This document shows positions 1,566 to 14,102 of a stretch of 64,000 bases of DNA, piece by piece. How positions within the stretch are numbered: position 1 is the stretch's first letter; each line of letters starts with the position of its first letter. The position numbers and the translations under genes were made by a program. The DNA is from Pelotomaculum isophthalicicum JI (GTDB lineage Bacteria; Bacillota; Desulfotomaculia; Desulfotomaculales; Pelotomaculaceae): positions 1 through 64,000 of the forward strand of contig NZ_JAKOAV010000013.1 of assembly GCF_029478095.1 (NCBI RefSeq). The letters run 5' to 3'. Under the pieces are notes generated by a model. It was not told the DNA's origin and searched no databases. It saw nothing but the letters and a program-made list of their open reading frames with translations.

Positions 1566-2360
1566 ATGTCGAAAACTCTTGATGAATTTCTGGACCAGAC
1601 GCTGCAGGAGGACTTTAAAAGCCTTAACAACGCCCACCGCAGCATGGTTAACGTGGTCAGGCGCGTGAAAACAGCGGGCGACGAGGGCAACCTGGAAGCC
1701 CTGCAGCAGGCTTTGGCCCGCTACGGAGAACTGCTGGACAGACAGCAGGAAACACTGCGGGGCCTGCTGGAGAAGCTGCCTTCTTTTAACCTGCAGTCTT
1801 ACCTGCAGGAAGAGTTTCACCGGGGCTTTATGGACGCCCTGGCGGCGGAAAGCCTGGCCGTGGAAGCGGAATACCCGGTTTACGAGGTTCTTCCTTATAA
1901 AGTGCGGGTGCTGCCGGAAAAAGAGATGGTCACCATCGACGACCGTGTCTACCGCAACTTGCGCCCCGGCGTCCTGGCCGGGCACTTAAGACGAAACCTC
2001 GACCGCTTAAACGCGGCTTCCTTCGATGCCCAGCGCTTTCTCCAGTCCCTGGCGGCTGCTTATGACACGGAGATGGCTAAACAGATCGCGAAGACAAAAA
2101 TTGACGTCAGCGAACAGGAAATACTGCTGAAAGACGTTTATAACACCCTCACCCCGCTGCCCCGGCAAAGACGCGACTACCCGGCGCAGCTTTTCGCCTT
2201 TGACCTGCACCGGGTGCTGCGAAGCGGCCAGATGAACGCGCCGGACGGCAGACGGCTCTGGCTGGGGAACGTGCGTAACAACAGGCAGGCGCTGGTGGTC
2301 CTGGACGCCCAGGGACAGCCCCAACGCTTTGGCGTGATGAAGTTTTACAGGGAGGGATAG
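1566..2360 (+). CDS. Unrecognised protein with helical N-terminus, first gene of a four-gene ATPase/helicase block
   Basis: This is a 264-residue soluble protein that I do not recognise. Residues about 1-75 are rich in heptad-like helix (EFLDQTLQEDFKSLNN, then ALARYGELLDRQQETLRGLL), suggesting a coiled coil or helical bundle. The remainder is mixed alpha/beta, with no signal peptide and no obvious catalytic motif. ATG at 1566 follows a GGGGGTG about 11 bases upstream, a so-so ribosome site. The stop at 2360 is followed three bases later by the next start (2364), so the two are almost certainly co-transcribed. It may be an adaptor or substrate-recognition subunit for the two following ATPases; that role is inferred only from position. 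Confidence 0.75.
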   Translation: MSKTLDEFLDQTLQEDFKSLNNAHRSMVNVVRRVKTAGDEGNLEALQQALARYGELLDRQQETLRGLLEKLPSFNLQSYLQEEFHRGFMDALAAESLAVEAEYPVYEVLPYKVRVLPEKEMVTIDDRVYRNLRPGVLAGHLRRNLDRLNAASFDAQRFLQSLAAAYDTEMAKQIAKTKIDVSEQEILLKDVYNTLTPLPRQRRDYPAQLFAFDLHRVLRSGQMNAPDGRRLWLGNVRNNRQALVVLDAQGQPQRFGVMKFYREG

Positions 2361-2363
2361 CCG

Positions 2364-3605
2364 GTGGAACCGGCAGTCAGAGAAGAAGCGCTGGAAAGCC
2401 TCCGACGCGGTAACCCGCCGCCGGATTTGCAGGCGCTTGAGGCAATCACGGTGGGCGAGCGGGAAGGGATTTGGAATTTCTGGCGGGACCACTACCTGAA
2501 TGATTATATTGCCTGTGGCGGCAGCAAGGTGAAGTTTCTCACCGGAAAGCCGGGCTCGGGTAAGACACACGCCCTCCTCCTGATGCTGGAGGAGGCCCGG
2601 CGGCTGGGCTACGTCACCTTTTTCACGAGTGCCCGCAGAGTGCGCCTAAATAAATTTGACTCGATTTACCAGACCGTATTGGACACGGTGGATGCGGAAA
2701 CCCTGGTGACAGCTTACTGTGATCGTGTGATAGGGAACCTGGGCTACCAGCCCGGGCAGCTTGAACCGGGACAGGATTTCTTTAGCTGGGCGCAGGCGCA
2801 GGGCCGGGCGGCGGACAGCTTGCGGCGCGAGATCCAGGAAAAGCTGGACGAGCTTTACCGGGACCGGAAAATAAACCACAACTTCGCAATGGCGTTTACC
2901 CAGCTCTGCGCCCACCACCTGGGCTCGCGCCGGTTGGCGGACGAGCAAAAGGAAATCCTGCAGGAGTGGCTGAAAGGCCGCCCCTTGCCGGCCAGGGCTT
3001 TAAAGCCTCTCAAAATTTTTACCCGCGTCGACAAATACAACGCCAGGCACATGATGGCGTCTTTCCTCCATTTGCTGCGCCTCTGCGGACACCGGGGGCT
3101 TTGCGTGGCGGTGGACGACCTGAGCGCCTTGCTGGAACGGGGGCCGGAAGGGCGAATGCTTTACGGCAGGTCCGCCCGCAACGAGGTCTACGAGAGTCTG
3201 CGGCAGCTCGTGGACGACTTCGCCGGATTCGAGGGGGCGTTTTTTGTCTTTGCCGGGCGGTCAGAGCTGATCTATGACGAAAAGGGAGGTTTTAAGTCCT
3301 ATGAGGCGTTGTGGATGCGTATCCAGAACGAGGTCTCGGGGGCGCGTCCGAACAAATTTGCCGATCTTTTCAACCAGGATCTTCTGGTGAAAGAATTTTT
3401 TACTGCCGAAACCTGCCTGGAACTACAACAAAGGCTGAACGAAACTTTCGGTCTCGGCTCTTGTATCCGGCAGGAGGATTTTCACTACCTGGTGGAAAGC
3501 GTCAGCATGCTTTCACCTGTGCGGCGGGCGGTGGAGGCAATTGTTAACTATTACGATGCGGGAGGTGAACGGGATGGAGAATTTTGCAGCCAGACAGATC
3601 ATTGA
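2364..3605 (+). CDS. P-loop ATPase resembling BREX-type ATP-binding DUF2791 family (first of two)
   Basis: This is a 413-residue AAA/STAND-like ATPase. It has a clear Walker A at about residues 61-68 (GKPGSGKT), a Walker B-like LCVAVDDL at about 246-253, and a sensor-type strand FFVFAGRSEL at about 293-302. The motif spacing and the segment between Walker A and B resemble the BrxC/BrxD (DUF2791) ATPases found with BREX and related defence loci. Family assignment is by recognition of pattern, not a search. GTG at 2364 is used. The 3' end overlaps the next gene by 32 bases, implying translational coupling. It probably acts in the cytoplasm with its paralogue and the helicase downstream. Confidence 0.7.
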   Translation: MEPAVREEALESLRRGNPPPDLQALEAITVGEREGIWNFWRDHYLNDYIACGGSKVKFLTGKPGSGKTHALLLMLEEARRLGYVTFFTSARRVRLNKFDSIYQTVLDTVDAETLVTAYCDRVIGNLGYQPGQLEPGQDFFSWAQAQGRAADSLRREIQEKLDELYRDRKINHNFAMAFTQLCAHHLGSRRLADEQKEILQEWLKGRPLPARALKPLKIFTRVDKYNARHMMASFLHLLRLCGHRGLCVAVDDLSALLERGPEGRMLYGRSARNEVYESLRQLVDDFAGFEGAFFVFAGRSELIYDEKGGFKSYEALWMRIQNEVSGARPNKFADLFNQDLLVKEFFTAETCLELQQRLNETFGLGSCIRQEDFHYLVESVSMLSPVRRAVEAIVNYYDAGGERDGEFCSQTDH

Positions 3606-4818
3606 ATACCTGCGTTCCGGAGTTTCCTCCCGAAACTTAAGCACCATTTTTTCCTACGGCCGGGAAGCCGCGTGTGAGCGAGTGGGGCGTGAACTGGAAC
3701 GGGTGAAACGGGATGGCGGCGCCTTTTCCCTGGTGGTTAAAGGCAACTTCGGCAATGGTAAAACACATTTTTTGAACATTATCGCCCACAAGGCGGAAGA
3801 AATGAATTTTGCCGTCAGTTTCGTGCCGCTTTCCAAGGAAACTCCTTTCGATAAACTGGACCGCCTGTACCGCCGGGCGGCAGCCGGCCTGTACCTGCCG
3901 GGCTGCTCCCAACCCGGCTTTGTCCCCTTGCTGGAAGCGCTGCAGCCGGACAGCGGTGAAGCGGATGAGATGCTGAATTATACCGCGCGTAACCTGCACC
4001 CGAAACTTGAGGCCGTGCTGAGAAACTACCTGGATGGCAGCGGTGACGCTTACAACCAGCATATCCTGGCCAGCGACCTGGCGGGTGACTTCGTTCCCAA
4101 CGCGCAGTTGAAATCCATCCACCGCCTGAACTTCGGGAAATCGCTGTCACTTACACCTTTTAAGATAAAAGAAAACACTTTCGATTACTTTCGCTTTCTA
4201 TCCCGCTTGATCCGGGCCGCCGGTTATGCCGGGTGGGTGATTCTGTTTGACGAGTTTGAACAGTTGATGTACCTGGGCATCACGGCCAGGGCCAACGCCT
4301 ACCTGAATGCCGCCCGTTTTATGTCACCATCTTTCGGCCTGACGGGAACTTATTCTGTATTTTCAGCCTCGTCCAACCTTTGGTCGGAATTGATTTGGAA
4401 ACAGAAAAACAGCGACTATGATGTTGTGCCGCAAAAGCTTGCGGCCAAAGAGAGACAATATGACATTCCCACGGTGCGGGAAGTTTTTGGCAGTTTTTTA
4501 AAAGAGAACCTCTTTCTGGACACTCTCTCCACTTTCGACATCCGCCGCATGCTCCAGGCCGTTCGCGACCAGCATGCCCTGGCTTACGGCTGGCAGGCGC
4601 CGGACGACATCAGCCGGGCGACGGCAGGTCTTCCTGCAGACCGGCCCTTGCGTACGGTGATCCGGGCCGTGGTGGAGTTCCTGGACCTGCAATATCTCTA
4701 CGGCGGCCGGCCGGAGATTGCGGCGGCGCTGCCGGATGAGATCCTGCCGGGGGAATTGCCGGAGGATGAGCGCGAAGAGCAGGAAAAGATTCAGGAGCAA
4801 GAGCACGAATGTCTATAG
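3574..4818 (+). CDS. P-loop ATPase of the DUF2791/BrxD-like family (second of two)
   Basis: This is a 414-residue ATPase starting at ATG 3574, chosen because GGGAGGTG lies just upstream; an in-frame TTG at 3541 has no ribosome site. Walker A is GNFGNGKT at about 57-64 and Walker B ILFDEFEQ at about 223-230. The N-terminal motif AARQIIEYLRSGVSSRNL and the region around the P-loop match what I know of BREX ATP-binding (DUF2791) proteins. The C-terminal 15 residues are very acidic (E/Q-rich). It is paralogous in architecture to the preceding gene, but sequence divergence suggests the two form a heteromer rather than a recent duplication. Confidence 0.75.
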   Translation: MENFAARQIIEYLRSGVSSRNLSTIFSYGREAACERVGRELERVKRDGGAFSLVVKGNFGNGKTHFLNIIAHKAEEMNFAVSFVPLSKETPFDKLDRLYRRAAAGLYLPGCSQPGFVPLLEALQPDSGEADEMLNYTARNLHPKLEAVLRNYLDGSGDAYNQHILASDLAGDFVPNAQLKSIHRLNFGKSLSLTPFKIKENTFDYFRFLSRLIRAAGYAGWVILFDEFEQLMYLGITARANAYLNAARFMSPSFGLTGTYSVFSASSNLWSELIWKQKNSDYDVVPQKLAAKERQYDIPTVREVFGSFLKENLFLDTLSTFDIRRMLQAVRDQHALAYGWQAPDDISRATAGLPADRPLRTVIRAVVEFLDLQYLYGGRPEIAAALPDEILPGELPEDEREEQEKIQEQEHECL

Positions 4819-4846
4819 CCCCGGGACCGGCGCCCGGGCATTTTTA
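4818..4846 (+). terminator. Stem-loop with T-run between ATPase and helicase genes
   Basis: CCCGGG (4820-4825) and CCCGGG (4833-4838) enclose a 7-base loop, followed by CATTTTTA. The stem is short but GC-only and starts right after the stop codon. It would partly uncouple the helicase gene from the three genes upstream. Confidence 0.5.
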
Positions 4847-4954
4847 TCATGAAGAGTTAGATTAAACGGGTCTTGGTTTTTCCCTCTATTGTATTTTTGC
4901 CCTTCTTTTCTCTTCCTACTTCCTACTTCTGACTTCTGAAAGAGAGGTGCCTTT

Positions 4955-7540
4955 TTGCACGCTACTGCATTAATCGATGCTTTCAATGAGGCGCTGGCGG
5001 AAGAAATAGCGTACCTGCGCAATGAAGGAGGCCGCCCCCTGGTGGTCTTGGATGGGGTGCTGGTTTACCGGGGCCAAGAAGGGTTTCTGTATGCCTTCGA
5101 GCTGGAGGTGGACGCTTTTCTCCTTGACGGTACGCCGGTGCGGCTGCGCTACGGCTCCCGCGAGACCGGGGGAGAGGTGGTGACTGTGCGCGGTTCAGAG
5201 TTGACCCTGGCGCTGCATGAGAACATGGGAGAACTCCTGGAGCGGGCCGAGGTGCTCTGCGAGCCCTGGTTTTTGCTGACCGCCCTGCAGGAACGGTTGC
5301 GCGAAACACCAGAGAGGAATTTGCGAATGGCCATGGCTGTGCTGGAAAAAGTACCGGCGCGCCGGCGGAGCTTCGTTTCGCTATCCGCCGCCGCAGGAGC
5401 CCAGGATGAAGCGTTGCGCCTGGCTGGCGAAAGGGAAATTACCTTTATCTGGGGACCGCCGGGCACCGGCAAGACAGAAACCCTGGCCCTGATCGCGAAG
5501 CTATTTTTTGAGCAGGGCGGACGGGTGCTGATCCTCTCTCATGCCAACGTAGCCGTGGATGGCGCGGTGCTGAGGGCGGCGGCCCGGATCGGGGCGCCGG
5601 CACGATCCGGTCTGGTGGCGCGTTACGGCTGGGCCAGGCTGCCGGAGTTACGGCAAAGCGGCCTGCAGGCCTCCAGCCAGGCTGCCGCCGGCCGCCCGGA
5701 AATGCAAGAGAGGCTTAGAGAACTGGAGGACGAGCGCAGCGAACTGCTGGCCGGGCTGCGCGCCGGCGGCGCCCGGGGCGGACGCCTGACCGAGGTGGAG
5801 CAGGCCTTGCGAGACATCAGGGAGGCCCTGAAAGAAGCAGCGGCGCATGTGTGCCGGGCAGCGCGGGTAGTCGGCTGCACCCTGTCCACGGCGGCCAACG
5901 ATCCGGTGATTTACAACGAACACTACGACTTCGTGCTGCTGGATGAGGCCAGCATGGCCTATATTCCCCAGGTGTTTTTTGCCGCCTCCCTGGCGGGGAA
6001 AAAGCTGGTGGTGAGCGGCGACTTCCGCCAGCTGGCGCCGGTGGCGCTGGCCGGGACGCCGGAGGTAAAACGCTGGCTGCGGCGGGACATCTTTGAGGAA
6101 GCCGGGATAACGTCCACTTTTGAAAACGGGCAGGCGCCGGACATCGCCGTGCTGCGCCTGCAGCGACGAATGCATCCATCCATTGCCGGGTTCGTGAACG
6201 ACTTTGTATACGGCGGGCTGCTTTACAACGCTCCGGAGACATCCGGACGCGCCGCGCTGGCCGCTGCCGGGCCATGCCCGGGAGCGGCGCTGACGTTGGT
6301 GGACCTGAGCGAGTTGCCCGCCTTCTGCTACCGGCACGGCTCTTCCCGCTTCAACCCTTTATCTGCTTTCTTGGCTCTGACGCTGGCCGGACAGATCAGG
6401 CCGGGCGGCCTAACGGTGGGCCTGCTTACGCCCTACGCGGCCCAGGCCAGGCTGCTAAACGCGTTGACGGCGGGATTTTTAGGAGTTACCGGCGCCCGTT
6501 CCGAGGCTGCCGGCTTGGTGGCCGCCACGGTGCACCGCTTTCAGGGAGCGGAGCAGGACGCGGTGGTGCTGGACCTGGTAGACTCCTTTCCCCAGCGCGG
6601 ACCCGGCGGCCTGCTTTCCCGCCGAGAAGGGAGCGCGGGGCAGCGGCTGATTAACGTCGCCGTCACCAGGGCGCGGGGCAAGCTTTTCGTTCTGGCCTGC
6701 CGTGATTTTCTGGAGAGCAGGCTGCCAGGCGATTCTGCCGTGTGCGGACTTTTTCGCTTCATCAGAGAAAACGGCCGGGTGATCGGGGGCAAAGAACTCC
6801 TGGCCAACCTACCCGTCCACGTTACGGGCGAAGAAATGGAAATTGAATGGCATGCCGGGCGCCGGCCGGCCATGGAAGCCTGGGAGGCCGACGTCCGCCA
6901 CGCGGCGTCCGTTCAAGTGGATTGGCCTGCCGCAGCCGGCCCGCCTGAGAGGTTGGTAGTGAACGCCTTGCGGCGGGCGCGAGCGGGCGGCGCCCGCCTT
7001 TCCCTGCGCGCCGGCCGGCCGTCGCTTTTTCCGCCAGACCTGCAGCCATACGCTATAAAGTATACCGCCGCACACACGCCACTGACGGCGGTGGACAGGG
7101 ACATCTTTTGGTACGGCAGCCCCTGGCCGGGAGACGACAAAGTGGACCGCTGCAGCGTCCGGGTGGCGGGGGAGAAAGTGTGCCGTAACTTGATTTACCT
7201 GCTGGAGATGGATCTGCGCGGGGGATTTTACAGGGGGCGCTACGCCGGCCTGAAGGCATATGTGGAAAACCGGTTTACCTGCCCCCGCTGCGGTGCCCCG
7301 CTGACTGTACGCTCGGGAACCGGCGGCGGTCATTTTCTAGGCTGTACCGCCTACCCGCGCTGCGATCTTCCGGTTGACAAGCTTACGTTGGAAATTATAG
7401 AAGATTACCTGATTGCAGCCGGGCTGACCTGCCCGGCCGGCCACCTTTTAAAGACAGTTCCGTCAAAACACGGGCCCCTGGCAATCTGCTCCCACAACCC
7501 GGCCTGCCGCTGTGTTTATCAGGTGAGGGACCTGCTTTAG
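4955..7540 (+). CDS. Large superfamily 1 (UPF1/DNA2-like) helicase with C-terminal zinc ribbons
   Basis: This is an 861-residue protein. TTG 4955 is the start, preceded by AGAGAGGTG at good spacing. Helicase motifs appear in order: Walker A GPPGTGKT (about 167-174), DEAS box (about 330-333), GDFRQLAP motif III (about 355-362), QRRMHP motif IV, TVHRFQGAEQD motif V and NVAVTRARGKLFVL motif VI. The insert between motifs Ia and II is a predicted coiled coil. The C-terminal part carries a topoisomerase-type zinc ribbon (CPRCGAPL...GC...YPRC) followed by a second cysteine cluster (CPAGH...CSHNPACRC). The family unwinds DNA or RNA. Context suggests it works with the upstream ATPases in nucleic-acid surveillance. 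A 29-base match to positions 6717-6745 occurs at 32484-32512. Confidence 0.85.
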   Translation: MHATALIDAFNEALAEEIAYLRNEGGRPLVVLDGVLVYRGQEGFLYAFELEVDAFLLDGTPVRLRYGSRETGGEVVTVRGSELTLALHENMGELLERAEVLCEPWFLLTALQERLRETPERNLRMAMAVLEKVPARRRSFVSLSAAAGAQDEALRLAGEREITFIWGPPGTGKTETLALIAKLFFEQGGRVLILSHANVAVDGAVLRAAARIGAPARSGLVARYGWARLPELRQSGLQASSQAAAGRPEMQERLRELEDERSELLAGLRAGGARGGRLTEVEQALRDIREALKEAAAHVCRAARVVGCTLSTAANDPVIYNEHYDFVLLDEASMAYIPQVFFAASLAGKKLVVSGDFRQLAPVALAGTPEVKRWLRRDIFEEAGITSTFENGQAPDIAVLRLQRRMHPSIAGFVNDFVYGGLLYNAPETSGRAALAAAGPCPGAALTLVDLSELPAFCYRHGSSRFNPLSAFLALTLAGQIRPGGLTVGLLTPYAAQARLLNALTAGFLGVTGARSEAAGLVAATVHRFQGAEQDAVVLDLVDSFPQRGPGGLLSRREGSAGQRLINVAVTRARGKLFVLACRDFLESRLPGDSAVCGLFRFIRENGRVIGGKELLANLPVHVTGEEMEIEWHAGRRPAMEAWEADVRHAASVQVDWPAAAGPPERLVVNALRRARAGGARLSLRAGRPSLFPPDLQPYAIKYTAAHTPLTAVDRDIFWYGSPWPGDDKVDRCSVRVAGEKVCRNLIYLLEMDLRGGFYRGRYAGLKAYVENRFTCPRCGAPLTVRSGTGGGHFLGCTAYPRCDLPVDKLTLEIIEDYLIAAGLTCPAGHLLKTVPSKHGPLAICSHNPACRCVYQVRDLL

Positions 7541-7642
7541 CTCCAGCGAACGAACTACAATTCAACTGTTTATTGAATGAGATCAAGAGATGGTTTGTTA
7601 AAAAAACTGGCAGAGCTAAAAAATGAAAACCCCAACATAATA

Positions 7643-7672
7643 TTAACATATTTATTAACATATTTATTGATA
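7643..7672. promoter_or_regulatory. Tandem 12-bp direct repeats upstream of the antitoxin (candidate operator)
   Basis: TTAACATATTTATT occurs at 7643-7656 and again at 7655-7668, a 12-base period, and continues as GATATTAC. The same arrangement recurs at 13677-13702 in front of the second antitoxin copy. Type II antitoxins commonly bind such repeats to autoregulate; binding here is inferred. Confidence 0.4.
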
Positions 7673-7739
7673 TTACATAGAATAATATTAAGAATAAATA
7701 AAATACTTATGAACGAAGCTGTTGGAAAGGATTGATATT

Positions 7740-8069
7740 ATGCTTGATAATATTTCTATAAGTAATATTATGAATTCTCTTGTGCCCATTTCACGTTTTA
7801 ATAAAGGTGAAGCCAATAAGATCTTTGAGGAACTGCGTGAAACTGGCTTTAAAATCGTGCTTAAAAATAATTCACCGGCTTGTATTCTACTGACTCCCGA
7901 AGCCTATGATCAGATGCTTGAAACGATTGAAAATTACCGTTTGTTTATAGAAGCAGAAAAACGTATGTCAAGTGCAACGGCGGAGGATTTTATCGCGGCT
8001 GACAAAGCTATGCAGGAGCTTGGCATTAATGATGCAGATTTAGAAGACACAGATGTGGAGCTTGAATAG
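7740..8069 (+). CDS. Orphan Phd/YefM-like antitoxin (duplicate copy)
   Basis: This is a 109-residue antitoxin-like protein starting at ATG 7740, with GGAAAGGA eight bases upstream. The N-terminal part (VPISRFNKGEANKIFEELRE, then a short beta hairpin and LLTPEAYDQMLE) is the Phd/YefM DNA-binding fold; the C-terminus is acidic. It is nearly identical to the antitoxin at 13773-14102, including about 130 bases of upstream DNA. Its toxin is absent: a few bases after the stop (at about 8085) the sequence switches abruptly into a TolB-like gene fragment. It may act only as an anti-toxin against the other copy's toxin, or simply be a relic. Confidence 0.8.
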   Translation: MLDNISISNIMNSLVPISRFNKGEANKIFEELRETGFKIVLKNNSPACILLTPEAYDQMLETIENYRLFIEAEKRMSSATAEDFIAADKAMQELGINDADLEDTDVELE

Positions 8070-13449: not shown

Positions 13450-13676
13450 GCAAGCCGTTTTTAAACATTGTGAGGGAAATGTGAGACAATGCAATTGGTG
13501 TTGGAAAAATGCCATTTGGAAATAGCCACCTTAAGACATATTATATACCAATCACCGGATTCAGTGTTAATAAAGTGTTTAGGGCGTGAAAACCATCCCC
13601 ATTGTTTTCCGGAAATTTGCCAACCGCTATACAATAAAAAACTGAGAGCTAAAAAATTGAAAACCTTAGCATAATA

Positions 13677-13706
13677 TTAACATATTTATTGACATATTTA
13701 TTGATA
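13677..13706. promoter_or_regulatory. Direct repeats upstream of the second antitoxin (candidate operator)
   Basis: TTAACATATTTATT (13677-13690) and GACATATTTATT (13691-13702) parallel the repeats at 7643-7668. They are part of a duplicated block that includes the antitoxin gene. Confidence 0.4.
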
Positions 13707-13772
13707 TTACATAGAATAATATTAAGAATAAATAAAAACTTATGAACGAAGCTGTTGGAAAGGGTTGATATT

Positions 13773-14102
13773 ATGCTTGATAATATTTCTATAAGTAATA
13801 TTATGAATTCTCTTGTACCCATTTCACGTTTTAATAAAGGTGAAGCCAATAAGATCTTTGAGGAACTGCGTGAAACTGGCTTTAAAATCGTGCTTAAAAA
13901 TAATTCACCGGCTTGTATTCTACTGACTCCCGAAGCCTATGATCAGATGCTTGAAACGATTGAAAATTACCGTTTGTTTATAGAAGCAGAAAAACGTATG
14001 TCAAGTGCAACGGCGGAGGATTTTATCGCGGCTGACAAAGCTATGCAGGAGCTTGGCATTAATGATGCAGATTTAAAAGACACAGACGTGGAGCTTGAAT
14101 AG
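13773..14102 (+). CDS. Phd/YefM-like antitoxin of a type II toxin-antitoxin pair
   Basis: This 109-residue antitoxin is nearly identical to the orphan copy at 7740-8069. ATG 13773 follows GGAAAGGG at eight bases. It has an N-terminal DNA-binding domain (RFNKGEANKIFEELRETG, LLTPEAYDQMLE) and an acidic C-terminal tail (EDFIAADKAMQEL, DLKDTDVELE) expected to wrap the toxin. The toxin start lies at or just before its stop. This is the intact version of the duplicated module. Confidence 0.85.
   Translation: MLDNISISNIMNSLVPISRFNKGEANKIFEELRETGFKIVLKNNSPACILLTPEAYDQMLETIENYRLFIEAEKRMSSATAEDFIAADKAMQELGINDADLKDTDVELE

Follow-up and report, generated by a model that had tools for sequence, protein, structure and literature searches.

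What do two BREX-type ATPases do outside BREX, and with which genes do they work? The question is raised by a block of four genes (g1 to g4) in a window that comprises the first 64 kb of contig C13 (NZ_JAKOAV010000013.1) of the Pelotomaculum isophthalicicum JI genome (G000), all four of which are real, intact and located on the plus strand. An initial annotation, made from the letters of the window alone, had taken them for a four-gene unit in which two ATPases with intact motifs lie between an unrecognised protein and a zinc-ribbon helicase, and had suggested a role in defence. Comparison with other genomes confirmed that the arrangement with g4 and the order of the first three genes both recur, as the annotation had asked to be checked. 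The unit that is conserved outside the clade of the window, however, is g1-g2-g3 (the triad), and the helicase is exchangeable.

The conserved triad

The triad consists of g1 (1566..2360; 264 aa), an intact open reading frame (ORF) and the first gene of the three, followed by g2 (2364..3605; 413 aa) and g3 (3574..4818; 414 aa), which both encode ATPases of the BrxC/BrxD family. The order g1-g2-g3 on one strand was found in 65/65 assembled triads, which is well beyond chance. The only condition for a row was that g1, g2 and g3 all be nearly full-length. The length filter let through 68 triads, and removal of the repeat organisms L156, L157 and L158 left the 65 rows of the triad tree, in which the identical pair L042/L112 was kept and from which partial triads (e.g. 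L035, L043, L048, L062, L071, L075, L076, L103, L117, L144, L146, L160 and L161) were excluded. A scan of the genome contigs with g2 yielded 46 loci, and in 41 of them each gene of the triad is present, whether nearly complete or only partial. The other five, four of them at contig ends, lack g1 or g3 and make the picture less tidy: there is no g1 in L048 and L075 (contig starts) or in L076 (unexplained), and g3 is wholly or mostly missing at the contig ends of L043 and L062.

The start of g3, chosen by its ribosome binding site, is most likely the ATG at 3574, which is preceded by GGAGGTG, the alternative being a longer ORF from the TTG at 3541. With the ATG, g3 would overlap g2 by 32 bp. The description of the genes as overlapping or abutting, as in an operon, therefore stands for the operon structure and the g2/g3 overlap but not for g4, which is separated from g3 by 136 bp.

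The exchangeable partner genes

In the window the partner of the triad is g4 (4955..7540; 861 aa), a UPF1-like SF1 helicase with the Pfam domains AAA_11 and AAA_12, a Topo I-type zinc ribbon (Zn_ribbon_Top1) at the C-terminus and a further Cys cluster, much as had been read from the window. It has both RecA-like domains and the similarity to UPF1/SMUBP2 that defines such helicases, and its best solved relative is UPF1 (E 4.1e-21, residues 150-580). A close g4 homologue was accompanied by g1 on the same contig in every genome that carries one (15/15, own included). Matches to g4 at E ≤ 1e-30 were found in 21 relatives, namely the 15 that share a contig with g1 and six that show 30-42% identity and do not adjoin g1. 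The four genes thus do belong together in this clade, but the conserved unit has three genes and g4 is one variant of the motor. In one locus (L104) g4 is positioned upstream of g1 and not downstream.

The partner labels for the 65 rows rest on family matches within the locus for SF1 and SF2 and on manual assignment from Pfam and clustering for the others and the window, and comprised: SF1 zinc-ribbon helicases (14), SF2 ResIII-type helicases (31), SNF2 ATPases (3), BrxL (2), helix-turn-helix (HTH) proteins (3), cas genes (6) and unassigned (6). Five of the six assigned classes have a helicase-type or ring ATPase as the partner or as a part of it. The labels are nearly clade-like, with 10 changes on the triad tree compared to 31.6 for shuffled labels (near-copies not corrected for), and the SF1 and CRISPR clades come out as sisters with a Shimodaira-Hasegawa-like approximate likelihood ratio (SH-aLRT) of 99, in a quick tree with some long branches.

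The SF2 partner (449-618 aa, split into two ORFs in one row) is never more than 433 bp away from the triad, whose strand it shares in 7 rows and not in the other 24 (Pfam was run on three); L068, which starts 322 bases from a contig end, is the single row of the SF2 clade without it. In L116, L119 and L147 the SNF2 ATPase has a 185-193 aa protein in front of it (identified by Pfam for the L119 pair and by clustering for the rest). BrxL is found directly behind g3 in L106 (12 bp) and L149 (one-base overlap; both spacings by longest ORF), and PglZ was not matched in the genome of L149 (G313) and was matched once in that of L106 (G031), on another contig. The HTH_3 protein (346-418 aa; Pfam on two) of L151 (10461-11717), L152 (8985-10058) and L153 (10758-11798) occupies the place that the motor has in other clades, upstream of the triad and on the same strand. 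A further locus, L150 (3901-6947), has a divergent triad and then a 437 aa protein without a Pfam family and an HSP70-like protein.

For the SF2 partner in L047 PADLOC gave PbeA as the best match, and PbeABCD was therefore considered as an identity for the system. It was rejected: g1-g3 gave no Pbe match, and the excerpts of two papers that describe PbeC as an ABC ATPase and PbeD as a DndE-like protein speak against it (PMC10853773, PMC6459918).

The two ATPases

Both g2 and g3 are members of PF10923 (BrxC_BrxD), with 112.7 and 88 bits, respectively, at a cut-off of 22.2, and they are the only matches to this family in the whole genome. Both remain far below the cut-off of the BrxD equivalog NF033438 (84.1 and 75.9 bits; cut-off 350 bits) and there is no PglZ on the contig, in agreement with the initial view of BREX-type ATPases outside BREX; the profile searches for PF10923 and SF1 helicases that were proposed along with it gave the expected families for g2, g3 and g4.

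That both ATPases have intact motifs was correct for Walker A (GKPGSGKT in g2 and GNFGNGKT in g3), but the canonical DE of Walker B is present only in g3; g2 has DD and lacks the catalytic Glu. Over the 65 rows the GKT/GKS of g3 is retained in 64/64 rows with sequence at that site and its DE in 65/65, whereas a canonical DE occurs in g2 in 1/64 rows (L143). The P-loop of g2 has been lost in 11/65 rows, of which eight belong to the CRISPR clade (all six with a cas label plus L107 and L113) and three are those with an SNF2 partner. The motifs suggest that g3 is likely the catalytic, ATP-hydrolysing subunit and that g2 is probably a nucleotide-binding or regulatory subunit, which probably binds ATP in most lineages. 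An active subunit with degenerate sister subunits is a pattern familiar from ORC.

The first protein of the triad

No Pfam or NCBIfam family was found above cut-off for g1, and PADLOC returned zero matches. The AlphaFold2 model (mean predicted local distance difference test score 93.1, and 94.3 for the alpha/beta domain modelled alone) predicts an N-terminal helical hairpin (~residues 5-73) followed by an alpha/beta domain (~76-264), and five residues (P110, P134, F153, L162 and Y205) do not vary in either alignment, that of 50 or that of 65 rows. A Foldseek search of the PDB gave nothing at E ≤ 0.001, with the whole model or with the domain alone. In VIA-align 2 with the whole model at least 48 of 50 rows span the hairpin only (residues ~1-79), and a profile search of solved chains retrieved chiefly coiled coils and designed helices. 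Fold searches without a match do not establish that the fold is new.

Apart from the complete triads, g1 is present in a type I-B cas locus (L103:9440-11043) in which g2 and g3 are not detectable and a 215 aa CARF-PDDEXK-like fragment comes next; this solitary g1 may work alone or may be a remnant. G029 and G057 (L105 and L111) hold only broken pieces of g1 with stop codons, in G057 together with a 57 aa g4-like fragment, and these copies of the block are, as their sequences read, decayed.

Association with CRISPR-Cas loci

In five loci (L108, L109, L114, L120 and L145) the triad is located among type I cas genes and on the same strand. According to PADLOC the types are: I-D for L109 and L120 (Cas10d, Cas11d, Cas7d), I-B for L114 and L145 (Cas8b, Cas7b) and I-A for L108 (Cas8a, Cas7). 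The sixth cas-labelled row, L110, has Cas6 alone beside g3, at a contig end. In L109 the triad is followed by Cas1, Cas2, Cas4 and Csa1. The gap between g3 and cas1, by longest ORF, is 2 bp in L109 and 8 bp in L114; small ORFs lie between the two genes in L120 and L145, and L108 has no cas1 within the fetched stretch and a truncated Csa1 only. CRISPR arrays were found in L114 (46 repeats) and L120 (44 repeats).

The Cas1 proteins linked to L103, L109, L114, L120 and L145 all fall in one eight-member Cas1 subfamily, of which the other three members are without triad. Because the Cas1-Cas4-Csa1 cassette occurred without the triad in all background loci inspected (5/5, one of which, L250, is on a 5.7 kb contig), the triad is to be regarded as an optional part of these CRISPR loci. 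The earlier suspicion of a defence link gained weight here, since relatives of the triad sit in type I cas operons and beside BrxL. A small DUF4282 protein was seen beside cas1/triad in I-A and I-D loci (L108:10780-11148, L109:10270-10674 and L120:6890-7249), and a protein of this type also beside a cas1 without triad (L248:10108-10464); the assignment was made by Pfam in L109 and by clustering or profile for L108, L120 and L248.

Distribution, selection and transfer

A search with g1 was positive in 32 of 150 related genomes, own included, and the triad was present in 18 of 398 genomes sampled from the phylum (own included). Among 149 genomes sampled around a Spirochaete carrier it was found in the carrier alone. 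The closest named relative of the block is that of Pelotomaculum propionicicum (93% for the concatenated triad).

The block is under purifying selection, with dN/dS values (the ratio of non-synonymous to synonymous substitution rates) of 0.07-0.24 for the window versus six relatives in 24 gene comparisons, synonymous sites being near saturation for L045. It has evidently also been transferred horizontally, as judged from an identity that does not track RpoB: the same-genus genome G001 shows 93% for RpoB but 77% for g1, and G064, from another family, 83% for RpoB and 89% for g1 (RpoB stretches of 814 and 499 aa, thus of unequal length). An element carried by phages or plasmids was considered and dropped because no homologue of g2 was found in plasmids or phages and none of the 14 pattern matches that the g1 alignment gave in viral contigs was confirmed.

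In the clade of the window the block needs neither CRISPR nor BREX. No Cas1 match was obtained in some of the genomes with the SF1 block (e.g. G027, G047, G080 and G088), and there was no PglZ match in 6/15 of them, among which G027, G042, G064 and G088. In the own genome three Cas1 and three PglZ matches were recovered, all on other contigs, with the PglZ-domain genes on C7, C11 and C16 and none on C13. Co-occurrence with Cas1 at the genome level was discarded as evidence, for 113/150 relatives match Cas1 anyway.

Defence genes in the neighbourhood were counted with PADLOC (E ≤ 1e-15) for 128 neighbour ORFs of 26 SF1/SF2 loci and for an equal number of control ORFs taken elsewhere in the carrier genomes (12 stretches). 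The neighbour set goes back to 30 loci with 161 neighbours, from which 150 were drawn before L118, L142, L143 and L161 were taken out; the control set goes back to 167 ORFs, from which 150 were drawn and the last 22 then removed to reach the matching number of 128. The neighbours gave 104 PADLOC families and the controls 79, in counts that represent members per family and not distinct proteins. Among the 25 listed for the neighbours are Wadjet JetA/JetB, Septu PtuA/PtuB and several PDC candidates, and the 25 listed for the controls are mainly UvrD-like GajB models.

What the triad might do

The explanation that we prefer, and to which we assign an about even chance, is that the triad forms the core of an anti-mobile-element system, in which an ORC/Cdc6-like hetero-ATPase would load onto foreign DNA, or license there, a DNA motor that can be exchanged. 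The products of g1, g2 and g3 would assemble, with g3 hydrolysing ATP and g2 acting as a sister subunit whose P-loop is gone in some lineages, and g1, with its hairpin and compact domain, would probably connect the two ATPases with the partner or with DNA. The complex would recognise foreign or replicating DNA and would then load or license a separate motor, which would remodel or block the recognised DNA; the part of the motor would be played by g4 here and, in other loci, by an SF2 helicase, by an SNF2 ATPase, by the MCM-like BrxL, or by type I CRISPR-Cas with its Cas3. Loading or licensing is favoured because most partners of the triad are ATP-driven machines that act on nucleic acid.

Several observations fit this explanation less well. 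The HTH partner of L151-L153 is no obvious motor, six of the 65 rows are without an assigned partner (L068, L107, L113, L148, L150 and L154), and L113, which groups with the CRISPR loci, shows an SNF2-type gene in convergent orientation and no cas genes in sight. Within the CRISPR loci the triad adjoins adaptation genes as much as Cas3. The enrichment of defence genes around the SF1/SF2 variants is only suggestive, and the ORC/Cdc6 fold of g2 and g3 was taken from family membership and one paper on BrxD.

The same data can be read in other ways. The ATPases might constitute a STAND-like sensor switch, in which g2/g3 detect an infection cue and release the variable partner as effector with no loading step; BREX also has inactive STAND/ORC-like members, for which sensor roles were proposed in a 2026 survey (PMC12839542). 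A g2 that is degenerate in some branches next to an active g3 could be expected of sensing paralogues, and the identity of the partner is indeed variable. Sensor switches, though, usually act through nucleases, membrane toxins or NADases, whereas most assigned partners here are DNA motors, and we consider a switch unlikely, if deserving of serious thought. An origin of the triad as a helper of CRISPR adaptation, serving substrate generation or integration for Cas1-Cas2-Cas4-Csa1 with related DNA processing by the helicase forms, would explain why the effector types vary (I-A, I-B, I-D) and the five linked Cas1 proteins (that of L103 beside g1 alone) are of one subfamily, with Csa1 and Cas4, as well as the close spacing of g3 and cas1 in L109 and L114. 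It is made improbable by the occurrence of the same cassette without triad, by the SF1 block in genomes that have no Cas1 match, by the lack of Cas1 in the stretch fetched for L108, and by the triad and Cas1 trees, which place L120 and L145 differently.

A host accessory of DNA repair or replication restart, with no part in defence, seems very improbable in view of the patchy occurrence (32/150, 18/398 and 1/149 genomes), the incongruence with RpoB and the location in cas operons and beside BrxL, even though ORC-like ATPases and UPF1/Dna2-like helicases serve replication and repair too and the solved relatives of g4 would fit such a role.

The loading explanation could be extended to a general-purpose motor adaptor of prokaryotic immunity, which could be plugged into stand-alone helicases, BrxL or type I CRISPR-Cas, in the latter case for target destruction by Cas3 or spacer acquisition by Cas1. 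We put this forward tentatively and with considerable doubt; if true, it would represent an unrecognised step that is common to innate and adaptive bacterial immunity. Pairs of an ATPase and a helicase recur across defence systems, which raises the question of how the motors reach the right DNA. A constant core with a changing motor, CRISPR operons and BrxL included, would make loading testable by the swapping of parts. The comparison also brings up a g1 family that is unnamed in the libraries used and an accessory module of some I-A, I-B and I-D loci.

Surroundings of the block in the window

The Pfam search covered nine ORFs from the first 9.3 kb of the window. At the very start of the contig two equal-scoring group II intron matches (84-159 and 1049-1147) lie at the two ends of a maturase/HNH ORF (135-1028), with an SLH-domain fragment downstream; they possibly stem from introns in tandem or nested in one another, or from an edge of the assembly. 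The initial annotation had taken the mobile introns beside the block as a feature of defence systems; remains of a group II intron are indeed found upstream, but an intron in this position has no bearing on a defence role in either direction. Downstream, a near-identical repeat is present at 7618-8000 and 13652-14033 (99% over 300 nt and 94% over 86 nt), the first copy starting ~78 bp past g4 and the second lying 6.03 kb further on, and it contains an ORF for a Phd/YefM-like antitoxin that scores under the Pfam cut-off.

Comparison with known systems

Among the open papers searched there was no description or earlier name of the triad; the bulk of the subscription literature, preprints and newer defence databases lay outside the search. 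The ATPase family and the theme of an ATPase plus a helicase are already known, and the block resembles several established systems in part. Shango, which we take to be composed of SngA with TerB, the ATPase SngB and the helicase SngC, likewise combines a small protein, a PF10923-type ATPase and a helicase, and the SngB profile gives 64.8 bits for g2 and 49.1 bits for g3. The block differs in that g1 has no TerB match in Pfam (up to E 1) and none in PADLOC, in its two ATPases, and in the SF1 type of g4, whose 23 PADLOC matches do not include SngC. The helicase core of g4 is also similar to MkoA of Mokosh (165.6 bits), but it covers only positions 628-1081 of the 1112 of that profile, and g1, g2 and g3 are without any Mokosh match.

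The BrxD-BrxHI dyad of type 2 BREX, like the block, couples a PF10923-type ATPase to a helicase. It has one ATPase where the block has two, it is without the extra g1 and its helicase is of a different type; BREX as a whole differs from the block by PglZ, which is absent from the contig. Loading has been proposed for this dyad, in that BrxD, an ATPase of the ORC-Cdc6 type, may load BrxHI (PMC12839542, excerpt), and for BrxL, which has MCM-like folds, it was suggested that other factors, perhaps BREX components, may act as loaders (PMC10164562, excerpt). Compared to the ORC/Cdc6-MCM licensing system the triad is accessory and patchy, has an exchangeable partner and shows no sign of an origin function. 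The likeness is one of functional analogy and not of membership, and consists of active and inactive AAA+ subunits that serve a DNA motor.

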